DNA of 64,000 bases from Alicyclobacillus sp. SP_1. Lineage in GTDB: Bacteria > Bacillota > Bacilli > Alicyclobacillales > Alicyclobacillaceae. Shown here in pieces: positions 8,266-12,336 of the stretch. Made by a program: the position numbers and the translations under genes. The notes beneath the pieces were generated by a model that was not told the origin of the DNA, made no database searches, and saw nothing but the letters and a program-made list of their open reading frames with translations. Within the stretch, counting starts at the first letter, position 1. The number at the start of each line of letters is the position of its first letter. The stretch is from contig NZ_JAMCCX010000039.1 in the NCBI RefSeq assembly GCF_024706985.1, forward strand, positions 62,001-126,000, in the 5' to 3' direction.

Positions 8266-8589
8266 ATGTCACCTCCAATTTGTAAAACGACTCTATCTCC
8301 TTCTCAAACAAGCTCAGCCATAATACACAGTCCCTTCATACAGTTCTTTCATTTCCACATGATAGCATGTCTTGAGCGGCTTAAGACATCAGACGCAGCG
8401 CCTGTTGGCATTGTGTTAGCGCCGCGCACGAAGAAGCGTTTGACACGGTCAGCGCCGACATACTGCAAAATCCTGCGCACCGTTCATAGCGTGTTCATAT
8501 TCGAGCGATATACTGGGAAGACAATAGTTTGCCATACGCTCATCCGCCTCCCAGCGGCTGATGCAGAGAAAGAAGGGACCCGCGAAACA
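8266..8589 (+). promoter_or_regulatory. Region upstream of the response regulator gene
   Basis: 324 bases without a gene. The left part holds the upstream region of the GNAT remnant. The right part holds the response regulator promoter (listed separately) and an untranslated leader of about 70 bases ending in GAAGGGA before the ATG at 8590. A reading frame open from 8221 runs into the regulator but has no protein-like character and no ribosome site. Confidence 0.5.
8482..8514 (+). promoter_or_regulatory. GTTCATA direct-repeat box and -10 of the response regulator promoter
   Basis: GTTCATA (8482-8488), four bases, GTTCATA (8493-8499), nine bases, then -10 TATACT (8509-8514). The 11-base repeat period and its place over the -35 position match the layout of PhoB/OmpR-type activator boxes. 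No good -35 hexamer is present, which fits activator dependence. The same box at the same spacing occurs before the ABC exporter genes on the opposite strand (12304-12336). Confidence 0.7.
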
Positions 8590-9264
8590 ATGGCTGTTGT
8601 GTTGGTTGTGGACGATGAAGAGCATATTCGAGAACTCGTCGCACATTATCTTCGCCGGCAGGGCATGGCAACGCTTGAGGCTGAGAATGGCGTTCAGGCA
8701 CTCGGGATTTTGAATGCACACCGGATCGATCTCGTCGTACTCGACATCATGATGCCCGGAATGGATGGATGGGAATTGTGCACGGAAATCCGTCGGGGAG
8801 GCTCGTTACCGGTTCTGATGTTGACCGCTAAAGGGGAAACGATGCAAAAGGTGAGGGGACTACGCCTCGGTGCAGACGACTATATGGTGAAGCCGTTCGA
8901 GCCGGAGGAGTTGATCGCCCGCGTCCAAGCTTTGCTGCGCAGATACCGAATTGTCACAGAACAGGTCGTACAAGTGGGGCAGGTATCGCTCGACGCAAAG
9001 GAGCGCATGGTGACTTGCCGTAGTCTTTCCGTCTCACTGCCACCCAAGGAATTCGATTTACTGTTCAAGCTGATGAGCTATCCTGGGCGAACACTGTCCC
9101 GAGACGAACTGATTGAATCCGTTTGGGGCTACGACTTTGATGGCGATGAGCGGACGGTCGATGTTCACATTAAGCGCCTTCGCGACAAATTCCCGGAAGA
9201 CCTCAGTGCATGGCGCGTGGTCACCGTGCGTGGATTGGGCTACCGACTGGAGGAACTCTCTTGA
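8590..9264 (+). CDS. OmpR/PhoB-family response regulator
   Basis: 224 residues. The receiver domain (1-120) has the acidic pair DDE (8-10), phospho-acceptor Asp52 in VVLDIMMPGMDG, Thr in LMLTAKG and Lys in YMVKPFEP. The C-terminal winged helix (about 130-224) has LPPKEFDLLFKLMSYPG, LSRDELIESVWGYDFDG, RTVDVHIKRLRDKF and VRGLGYRL. It should bind direct repeats of about 11 bases; a matching box lies in its own promoter and in that of the facing ABC exporter. The ATG at 8590 is chosen because the receiver fold starts there; an open frame from 8221 is not coding. Its stop overlaps the kinase start. Confidence 0.95.
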   Translation: MAVVLVVDDEEHIRELVAHYLRRQGMATLEAENGVQALGILNAHRIDLVVLDIMMPGMDGWELCTEIRRGGSLPVLMLTAKGETMQKVRGLRLGADDYMVKPFEPEELIARVQALLRRYRIVTEQVVQVGQVSLDAKERMVTCRSLSVSLPPKEFDLLFKLMSYPGRTLSRDELIESVWGYDFDGDERTVDVHIKRLRDKFPEDLSAWRVVTVRGLGYRLEELS

Positions 9265-10358
9265 GCCGCGAAGCGCTACGCAGGCGAGTCAAACAATTCG
9301 GACTCATCTCATCCTGGTGGATTTTGGGGTTGGTCGGCATCGGTAGTGTCTACTCGCTATCATTTTTACTTACCGCATGGCTCACTTCTCGGTTTCACTG
9401 GGTACTTGGGATGTATCTGCGTGACATGACAACACTCGGCATGACTCTCCTCCTGCTGGTCATTCTCGGCACTGCGGTTCATCGATTGGTTCGGCCGCGA
9501 CAGCGACTCCTGTGGCAGTCACTGATCGAAGCGCTTCGAAATATGTCCAAAGGCAACTTTGATGTTCGCTTGAATGTGGACATGATTCGAGGAGAGCCAG
9601 GAGGACAGGAACACCCCATTCGCCTCCTTGTCCACAGTATTAATAATATGGCGCAAGAATTGGCGGAGCTCGAACAGATGCGTCAGGAATTCATTTCAAA
9701 TGTGTCGCACGAAATTCAATCCCCCCTGACCTCCATTCAAGGCTTTACCGCTGCTATACGACAAGGGAACTTGTCTACCGAGCAGCAGGAACACTATCTC
9801 AATATTATCGAAGCGGAAAGCAAACGATTGTCACGGTTGAGCGACAACCTGTTGAAGTTGACGTCCCTTGAGTCCGGGTATCACCCGTATCACGCGGAGC
9901 CCTACAGGCTAGACCGACAAATTCGAGATATCGTTTTAGCTTGTGAGCCAACATGGTCGGACAAACACATTCAAGTGCAGGTTGAAGCACCTTCTGTCGA
10001 AATTTGTGCGGACAAAGACTTGTTGAGCCAAGTATGGGTGAACATCCTATCCAATGCGATTAAATTCACACCCGAACAAGGCTTCATTGACATTTCCGTA
10101 CACGTATCCGCGGAAGGGGTAGTGGTAAGCATCACGGATACCGGGATGGGCATGACGGAAGAGGAGCAAGAGCGGGTTTTTGAACGATTTTACAAGGCCA
10201 ATACGTCCCGTGTGACCTCTGGTGCCGGACTAGGATTGTCTATTGTGAAAAAAATAGTCGACTTACACCACGGCACAGTGCAGGTGGTGAGCGCCGTCAA
10301 CGGCGGATCGACCTTCACCGTCTCTCTACCCCGCGCGCAGACACCACTCCTGTCGTAA
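9261..10358 (+). CDS. Sensor histidine kinase, probably intramembrane-sensing
   Basis: 365 residues from a TTG start that overlaps the regulator stop as TTGA, with GGAGG 7 bases upstream. Two membrane helices (about 18-40 and 56-76) are separated by only about 15 residues outside the cell, so there is no room for an extracellular sensor domain. A HAMP-like linker follows, then the dimerisation helix with phospho-acceptor His150 in NVSHEIQSPLTS, and the ATPase domain with N box NILSNAIKFTPE, DTGMGM, FERFYKAN and GAGLGLSIVKKI. It pairs with the regulator upstream. Kinases of this type in Firmicutes often sense envelope stress together with an ABC transporter, which fits the neighbouring exporter. 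Confidence 0.93.
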   Translation: MSREALRRRVKQFGLISSWWILGLVGIGSVYSLSFLLTAWLTSRFHWVLGMYLRDMTTLGMTLLLLVILGTAVHRLVRPRQRLLWQSLIEALRNMSKGNFDVRLNVDMIRGEPGGQEHPIRLLVHSINNMAQELAELEQMRQEFISNVSHEIQSPLTSIQGFTAAIRQGNLSTEQQEHYLNIIEAESKRLSRLSDNLLKLTSLESGYHPYHAEPYRLDRQIRDIVLACEPTWSDKHIQVQVEAPSVEICADKDLLSQVWVNILSNAIKFTPEQGFIDISVHVSAEGVVVSITDTGMGMTEEEQERVFERFYKANTSRVTSGAGLGLSIVKKIVDLHHGTVQVVSAVNGGSTFTVSLPRAQTPLLS

Positions 10359-10411
10359 AGCGGATGGGAGTGGTGTGCTCAGCCGCGTATTCGGTTGCGG
10401 CGGCCCATCCG
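10341..10411. terminator. Inverted repeats between convergent kinase and ABC permease genes
   Basis: Two overlapping pairings are possible: ACACCACTCC (10341-10350) with GGAGTGGTGT (10367-10376), and CGGATGGG (10361-10368) with CCCATCCG (10404-10411). Neither has a clear U-run. They lie exactly where both convergent transcripts must end. Confidence 0.4.
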
Positions 10412-10420
10412 ATGAGGACT

Positions 10421-11239
10421 TTATGCGCGCCGCATATAGTTGCGAACCGTTAGTGGTGCAAAGATCAACACGACCACGGCGGCACCGATGAGTGAGATGC
10501 CCAGATTGCTGCCGATGGTGCCGCTGTCAGCGAGTTCGCGCACGGCGCTGACCAGGTGAGAGAGCGGATTGATGTGGACGAACCATTGTAGCCAATGCGG
10601 CATGGTCTTGACTGGTACAAAGGCATTGGAGAGAAAGGTGAGCGGAAACAAAATGAGCAGTGAGATTCCTTGCACACTAGAGGCTGTGCGAGCAATCACG
10701 CCAAAGAACGCGAATATCCAACTCATTGCCCATGCGCATACAATGACCAGTACGGCGGCAACAGCCACATGACCGAGTCCTCCGCTTGGGCGATATCCCA
10801 GGATGTATCCCATCGTAAAGGTAAGTGTTGTGGCAATCGCATATCGAATGGTGTCGGCCAGCAGTGCCCCGGCGAGCGGAGCGATACGCGCAATGGGCAG
10901 AGACTTGAACCGGTCGAACACGCCCTTATCCATGTCTTCTCGCAGTTGAACACCGGTCACAACCGAAGTGGTAATGACGGTCTGAACAAGGATACCAGGA
11001 ATAATCACCGGTAAATAACTGTGAACATTCCCGGAAATAGCTCCACCAAAGATATAGGTGAACATCAACGTGAAAATGAGGGGCTGCAATGTGACGTCTA
11101 TAAGTTGCTCTGGCGTACGGCGAAGTTTCAAGAGCCCTCGATACGCCATGGTCAAAGAGTTTTGTACCGACTGGCCTAGGCTCACGCGGTTTTTTAACAA
11201 AGGCTCGACCTCTGGCAAAATGGCTTGTTGGCTACTCAT
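10421..11239 (-). CDS. ABC-2 type exporter permease (DrrB-like)
   Basis: 272 residues with six predicted membrane helices after a cytoplasmic N-terminus of about 55 residues. Typical ABC-2 features: RTPEQLIDVTLQPLIFTLMF at the first helix, PGILVQTVITTSVVTGVQLR, MDKGVFDRFKSLPIARIAPL (the coupling element between helices 2 and 3), and LLILFPLTFLSNAFVPVKTM near the C-terminus. It ends with RNYMRRA. Its start overlaps the stop of the ATPase gene as ATGA, so the two are made together. By homology it exports hydrophobic drugs or lipids; the substrate is not known. Confidence 0.92.
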   Translation of the reverse strand: MSSQQAILPEVEPLLKNRVSLGQSVQNSLTMAYRGLLKLRRTPEQLIDVTLQPLIFTLMFTYIFGGAISGNVHSYLPVIIPGILVQTVITTSVVTGVQLREDMDKGVFDRFKSLPIARIAPLAGALLADTIRYAIATTLTFTMGYILGYRPSGGLGHVAVAAVLVIVCAWAMSWIFAFFGVIARTASSVQGISLLILFPLTFLSNAFVPVKTMPHWLQWFVHINPLSHLVSAVRELADSGTIGSNLGISLIGAAVVVLIFAPLTVRNYMRRA

Positions 11240-12264
11240 GATAGAAACTCCTCCTCGCTGGCTGCACCCTCCGGTGTCTTTCCTAAATTCTGCCCCGTGT
11301 CGTGTCCTGTGATGGTTAAAAACACTTCATCAAGCGTCGGCTTTTGCACACTCATTTCAGCCAGGCCAATCCCTGACTCACGGAAATACAGAAGTAAATC
11401 AGTCACCCGGTCTGCATCGGCCATTGGAGCCGTAATTCCTCCTGCTTCTGAGGAGACGATGGCCTTCACGCCGAGTACCTTTTCAATCATCCGGCACGCA
11501 CTTTGAATTTCTGCTGCATTCTTGAGCTGCAGTTGCAAAGAGGATGTACCGACCGACATTTTCAACTCATCCACGGTCCCTTCGGCAACGACTCGACCGT
11601 GGTCGATGACGGCGATACGGTCCGCTAGTTGATCGGCTTCGTCCAGATACTGTGTGGTTAACAGTACGGTCGATCCCGTTTTCACCAATCTTCGAATCGT
11701 GTCCCACATCTGGGATCGTGTACGGGGGTCAAGCCCAGTGGTCGGTTCATCGAGAAAGATAAGCGGCGGTTGGGCGATTAAACTCGCTGCTAAATCCAAC
11801 CTGCGACGCATGCCTCCAGAGAACTTCTTGAGCGGTCGTTTCGCCGCTTCCACCAAATCGAATTCCTCCAACAATTCTGCCGCTTTCCGCTTCGCGTCCG
11901 AACGACTAAGCCCGAGTAGTCTGGAAAAAATCACAAGATTTTCGGTGGCACTTAATGTTTCATCGACAGAGGCATATTGTCCCGTCACGCCAATCAGCTG
12001 ACGAACACGGTACGGTTCTCGCACGACGTCATGCCCGAAGATGCGCGCAGTCCCCGCGTCTGGCTTTAATAATGTGGCAAGCATGCGAATGGTAGTTGTC
12101 TTTCCGGCCCCGTTGGGGCCGAGTACGCCGTAAATGGTCCCTGTGCGAACCTGCATATGAATCCCATCCACGGCCCGATGAGTGCCGAAGCTTTTGACCA
12201 AACTTTCTGCCTCGACAGCCCACATGGATTCACGCTTTATCTCGCTGTTGCTCGCGCGGCTCAT
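11236..12264 (-). CDS. ABC exporter ATPase (DrrA-like)
   Basis: 342 residues. Walker [15 protein letters not shown], the Q-loop region in [12 protein letters not shown], signature [15 protein letters not shown], Walker [13 protein letters not shown] and a switch His replaced by Gln in [11 protein letters not shown], as is common in the DrrA group. A C-terminal domain of about 90 residues ends with [16 protein letters not shown], also DrrA-like. The start ATG at 12264 has GGGAGGAAC 8 bases upstream. The frame stays open to 12438, but that stretch contains the promoter box and is not coding. Makes a homodimer on two copies of the permease. Probably controlled by the response regulator encoded on the other strand. 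Confidence 0.94.
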
Positions 12265-12303
12265 CTCTGTTCCTCCCCATCCACTCTTCTTCGTTCCTTC
12301 CGC

Positions 12304-12336
12304 ACAATAACGGAGGTTTATGAACGCCGTATGAAC
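12304..12336 (-). promoter_or_regulatory. GTTCATA direct-repeat box and -10 of the ABC exporter promoter
   Basis: Minus strand: GTTCATA (12336-12330), CGGC, GTTCATA (12325-12319), nine bases, then -10 TATTGT (12309-12304). Box sequence, 11-base period and the nine-base gap to the -10 are the same as in front of the response regulator gene. Predicted start near 12297, about 33 bases before the ATPase ATG. Confidence 0.7.

Follow-up and report, generated by a model that had tools for sequence, protein, structure and literature searches.

Two promoters that face each other in the 64,000-base stretch analysed here (the window) carry the same direct repeat, one in front of a response regulator/kinase operon and the other, on the opposite strand, in front of an ABC exporter operon, which raises the question of what this shared box does. 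It is very likely the operator of the regulator encoded at 8590-9264, whose phosphorylated form would activate both its own operon and the operon of a DrrAB-type exporter. The features of the locus are as follows:

8482..8499, + strand: direct-repeat box GTTCATA-GCGT-GTTCATA of the regulator/kinase promoter
8509..8514, + strand: -10-like hexamer TATACT, nine bases (ttcgagcga) after the box, without a recognisable -35
8590..9264, + strand: OmpR/PhoB-family response regulator of 224 aa, receiver plus winged helix
9261..10358, + strand: sensor histidine kinase with two predicted membrane helices, a short outside loop, HisKA and HATPase_c
10421..11239, - strand: ABC-2 type exporter permease, DrrB-like (PF01061)
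11236..12264, - strand: exporter ATPase of the DrrA family (TIGR01188)
12304..12309, - strand: -10-like hexamer TATTGT, nine bases (aacctccgt) after the box
12319..12336, - strand: direct-repeat box GTTCATA-CGGC-GTTCATA of the exporter promoter

The original prediction, in which GTTCATA-N4-GTTCATA is followed by nine bases and TATNNT at both promoters, is exact at these positions on both strands, and its comparison of the period of 11 and of the placement over the -35 with PhoB boxes agrees with what is found in boxes of the PhoB type. When every period from 7 to 29 was scanned, the GTTCATA pair was the sole 7-base direct repeat recurring at the same period in the window, where these two sites are also the only exact matches. 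The genome scan that had been proposed, for the box at nine bases from a -10, recovered the exact box at just two promoters, and both exact matches to GTTCATA-N4-GTTCATA in the whole 3,395,104-base genome lie at the regulator/kinase and exporter promoters. The best other site (G000:C50:5628) has one mismatch, lacks a -10 in register and was left out of the counts; according to a reversed-pattern control in the same genome, sites with two mismatches are background. The box pair is real and well above chance.

The two operons are convergent, with the regulator and kinase on the + strand, the exporter on the - strand and the promoters at the outer ends. Their stop codons are separated by 62 bases, and no intrinsic terminator was found between them. 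Assignment of the regulator to the OmpR/PhoB family follows from its matches to PF00072 (115.9 bits) and PF00486 (91.2 bits), both over the cut-off, and its closest solved structure is RegX3 (2oqr, 188 bits). Its identification as PhoB itself (TIGR02154, 218 bits against a cut-off of 296.2) or as MtrA (NF040689, 230.1 bits against a cut-off of 300) was rejected. The ATPase passes the DrrA model TIGR01188 (375.8 bits against 312.45), and the permease falls below the DrrB cut-offs (TIGR01247, 81.7 against 223.05; TIGR00025, 103.1 against 146.9) and passes ABC2_membrane (PF01061). The hydropathy profile puts one kinase helix at about 19-39 and the other at about 55-77, leaving a loop of about 16 residues, and a HAMP-like match is weak and below the cut-off. 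Such an arrangement is typical of membrane-sensing kinases, in which two N-terminal helices flank an outside loop of less than about 25 residues and any further sensor domain is absent. The substrate of the exporter is probably a membrane- or envelope-active compound.

Of the 41 family genomes, the one containing the window among them, 20 have a regulator ortholog. Across these 41 genomes the pattern GTTCA-N6-GTTCA-N11-TANNNT occurs at 41 sites, compared with 3 for the reversed pattern and 3 for an off-register control in which the -10 was placed two bases closer. Most of the in-register sites (29 of 41) directly precede an ortholog of the regulator (10) or of the exporter ATPase (19); the remaining 12 comprise two before another ABC ATPase gene behind a kinase gene, two before a GtrA-type gene beside a related regulator, one at a truncated regulator and seven at something else. 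Because some loci had been found through the box, and were thus both found and counted by its register, the ATPase was also searched for without reference to the box, which gives the fair count. This search returned 26 orthologs, 22 of which have a box with a score of 11 or more out of 12; among the Markov controls, 5 of 7,800 regions reach 11. The exceptions are those of two sister-family genomes without a close regulator and, in G032 and in G040, one exporter copy out of two.

Upstream of the regulator itself, a box scoring at least 11 is present in 17 of 21 orthologs, the one in the window included, and the four orthologs that lack it (G022-G025) belong to genomes whose exporters are boxed. 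The arrangement of the genes varies among the genomes. Regulator and exporter genes are divergent in G002, G009 and G035, where the two boxes face each other across the intergenic space, and exporters unlinked to the regulator are still boxed in G001, G008, G016, G022 and G023. At other sites the spacer varies and the half-sites are constant, which bears out the earlier view that the differing spacers (GCGT and CGGC) mark a conserved signal. As for the predicted autoregulation and exporter control by this regulator, the part that can be tested on sequence holds, through the conserved boxes before both orthologs.

Several individual loci were observed beside this general picture. In G023 (L055:4955) and G022 (L056:7999), a box is situated in the interval that separates the kinase gene from another ABC exporter (ATPase about 43% identical), and the usual exporter of both genomes is located elsewhere and is also boxed. 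An in-register box at G036:C15:23824-23856 (L136) is followed by a gene for an HtrA-like protease; such a target would suit a role in envelope stress, but the site may be chance. The regulator ortholog at G007:C1:1046105-1046551 (L185) consists of residues 73-221 only (60% identical) and is possibly truncated; the exporter box is kept. The boxed regulator gene at G013:C72:7328-7360 (L139) is seemingly fused or truncated, with kinase-like sequence after it, and a search of this genome yielded no exporter ortholog.

The box might instead serve as a Pho-type operator of general use, with the phosphate regulator or another OmpR-family paralog binding it in place of the neighbouring regulator. The half-site resembles the Streptomyces PhoP and E. 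coli PhoB boxes and is common to related regulators, so a paralog could bind it, and in G004, G014 and G052 regulators 51-54% identical to this one are neighbours of similar boxes at genes for cell-envelope sugars. In G006 the exporter is boxed and a close regulator is absent (best 48% identity), and a paralog would therefore have to act there. Against this, the only two exact boxes of the genome under study are both at this locus, the regulator's own gene is preceded by the box in most orthologs as counted above, and the boxed genes that were read in the family included no phosphate gene. We therefore consider action through a paralog unlikely, and keep the neighbouring regulator as the protein that would bind the box.

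At the sugar loci themselves (G004, L068:6006-6038; G014, L067; G052, L135), the same box accompanies genes for a GtrA-type flippase, a glycosyltransferase and GalU- and GalE-like proteins. Together with the related regulators, this suggests a second circuit for cell-surface sugars that uses the same box.

With regard to the direction of control, a -35 match of at least 4/6 at 16-18 bases is present in 2 of 116 boxed promoters, compared with about 11% in random sequence, so these promoters probably need an activator. Activation rather than repression is likely on this ground. Repressors also sit over the -35, and the box overlaps that position, so that the bound regulator might be imagined to block polymerase there; but with those two exceptions there is no -35-like sequence left to repress, and fixed spacing next to the -10 fits activators that touch polymerase, which makes a repressor site quite improbable. 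PhoB is such an activator, placed next to the -10 at a fixed spacing. That the similarity of the two promoters is due to chance or to a recent copy of one of them, as could happen with two short sites in one locus, has a negligible probability and was rejected, because the two sites differ in spacer and flanks and orthologous promoters in dozens of genomes keep this box, a conservation that rules out both.

Self-activation by the regulator and activation of the exporter are both very probable. The kinase would signal to the regulator, presumably by phosphorylation, and the phosphorylated regulator would bind as a head-to-tail dimer with one subunit on each GTTCATA half-site. Given the period of 11, both subunits of this dimer would lie on the same side of the DNA and overlap the position at which a -35 element is lacking; from there the dimer could recruit RNA polymerase to the -10 nine bases further on, with activation of the regulator's own operon and of the DrrAB-type exporter operon as the expected outcome. 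The 21 family regulators share an almost invariant recognition helix, DERTVDVH(I/V)KRLR, in keeping with the invariant core of the half-site. A comparable arrangement is known from M. tuberculosis PhoP, which binds 7-bp direct repeats as a tandem dimer with a strict 4-bp spacer (PMC4832192).

Beyond the family, 80 exporter loci from named Bacilli (Paenibacillus, Cohnella, Neobacillus, Gottfriedia, Sporolactobacillus and others) were read, of which 77 were scored. With G or A allowed at base 1 and C or T at base 4, 72 of the 77 exporter promoters contain both half-sites and a -10 in register. Base 4 of the half-sites is T in both in 37 of these promoters, C in both in 35 and mixed in none, a concerted change that is predicted by the binding of two identical subunits. 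Many Paenibacillus exporters have GTTTA in both half-sites, which is a new observation. In Cohnella rhizosphaerae (G083, L309), a regulator fragment with GEERTVDVHINRLR lacks an in-frame start codon and probably represents either a pseudogene or an error of assembly.

In Paenibacillus genomes whose exporter boxes are of the GTTTA form, there is a group of regulators with the motif GNERT(V/L/I)DVHI(N/S)RLR (N-type), which forms one clade nested among the K-type regulators (support 89). The motif occurs in 25 of 37 GTTTA genomes and is absent from the other 12, compared with 1 of 35 GTTCA genomes, the single exception being a GEERT fragment outside the N-type clade. The association between box type and N-type regulator has a Fisher p of 2.6e-9, which does not count as independent evidence, since these genomes are related to one another and only one well-supported contrast is left on the exporter tree: box type changes about 8 times on that tree, on weakly supported branches, with one well-supported independent pair. 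An exact in-register GTTTA box precedes the regulator's own gene in 6 of 27 N-type members, and 2 more have ATTTA in the second half. Both forms coexist in G061 and G064, where the N-type regulator has a GTTTA box and the K-type regulator of the same genome a GTTCA box; in the GTTTA-exporter genomes G059, G062, G065 and G066, too, K-type regulators are accompanied by GTTCA boxes.

These patterns would be consistent with a natural specificity switch in which the helix changed from GDERTVDVHIKRLR to GNERT(V/L)DVHI(N/S)RLR together with base 4 from C to T in both half-sites, a tentative reading that we hold slightly more doubtful than probable. The C to T change would have taken place at the exporter and in some genomes also at the regulator's own promoter, with K-type regulators of the same genome keeping GTTCA. 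In the alignment, the residue changed from Lys to Asn corresponds to Ser219 of M. tuberculosis PhoP, which contacts a DNA phosphate and is not described as contacting bases; any effect of Lys or Asn on base choice would therefore be indirect or shared with other changes. If the switch is true, a difference of one or two residues would be enough to separate two parallel circuits.

The present analysis provides a previously unstudied two-component system with a predicted operator and a putative regulon of two operons, and indicates that the wiring between regulator and exporter is old, being kept across Bacilli even where the genes are separated. The paired GTTCA and GTTTA boxes provide natural variants for studying base choice by PhoB-type regulators, and they bear on how paralogous circuits stay apart. 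This natural split is the more noteworthy part of an otherwise ordinary system.

Compared with known systems, the GTTCATA box, a 7-base repeat with a 4-base spacer that covers the -35 position and adjoins the -10, belongs by its layout to the established PhoB/PhoP class of direct repeats. Searches of open-access papers returned no previous description of it. The S. coelicolor PhoP box is quoted as GTTCACC-N4-GTTCACC (PMC4832192). In the form quoted, it shares the 7-base direct repeat, the 4-base spacer, the period of 11 and the first five bases, GTTCA, and differs in ending with CC instead of TA; the box studied here stands at an exporter and its own regulator, not at phosphate genes. For E. 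coli PhoB, the same source quotes the pho box as CTGTCAT-(A/T)4-CTGTCAT (PMC4832192). As quoted, this is likewise a period-11 direct repeat with a TCAT core, and the recognition helices are similar, whereas TGTCAT stands in place of GTTCAT and the present regulator is under the PhoB family cut-off. Both the E. coli pho box and the GTTCATA box take the place of the -35.

RegX3 of M. tuberculosis (2oqr) is alike in its recognition helix (GDTKTLDVHVKRLR compared with GDERTVDVHIKRLR). RegX3 serves phosphate starvation, whereas the partner here is a DrrAB-type exporter. BceRS-BceAB is a Firmicutes two-component system next to an ABC exporter, and BceAB is of the FtsX type. The present locus resembles it in having an OmpR-family regulator, a kinase with two membrane helices and a short loop, and an adjacent ABC exporter that would be under their control; it differs in that the exporter is DrrA/DrrB (ABC-2) and a transporter-kinase sensing complex is not indicated. 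In kind, the system appears ordinary, a well-supported case of a predicted PhoB-type operator through which a two-component system would regulate itself and control an adjacent exporter.
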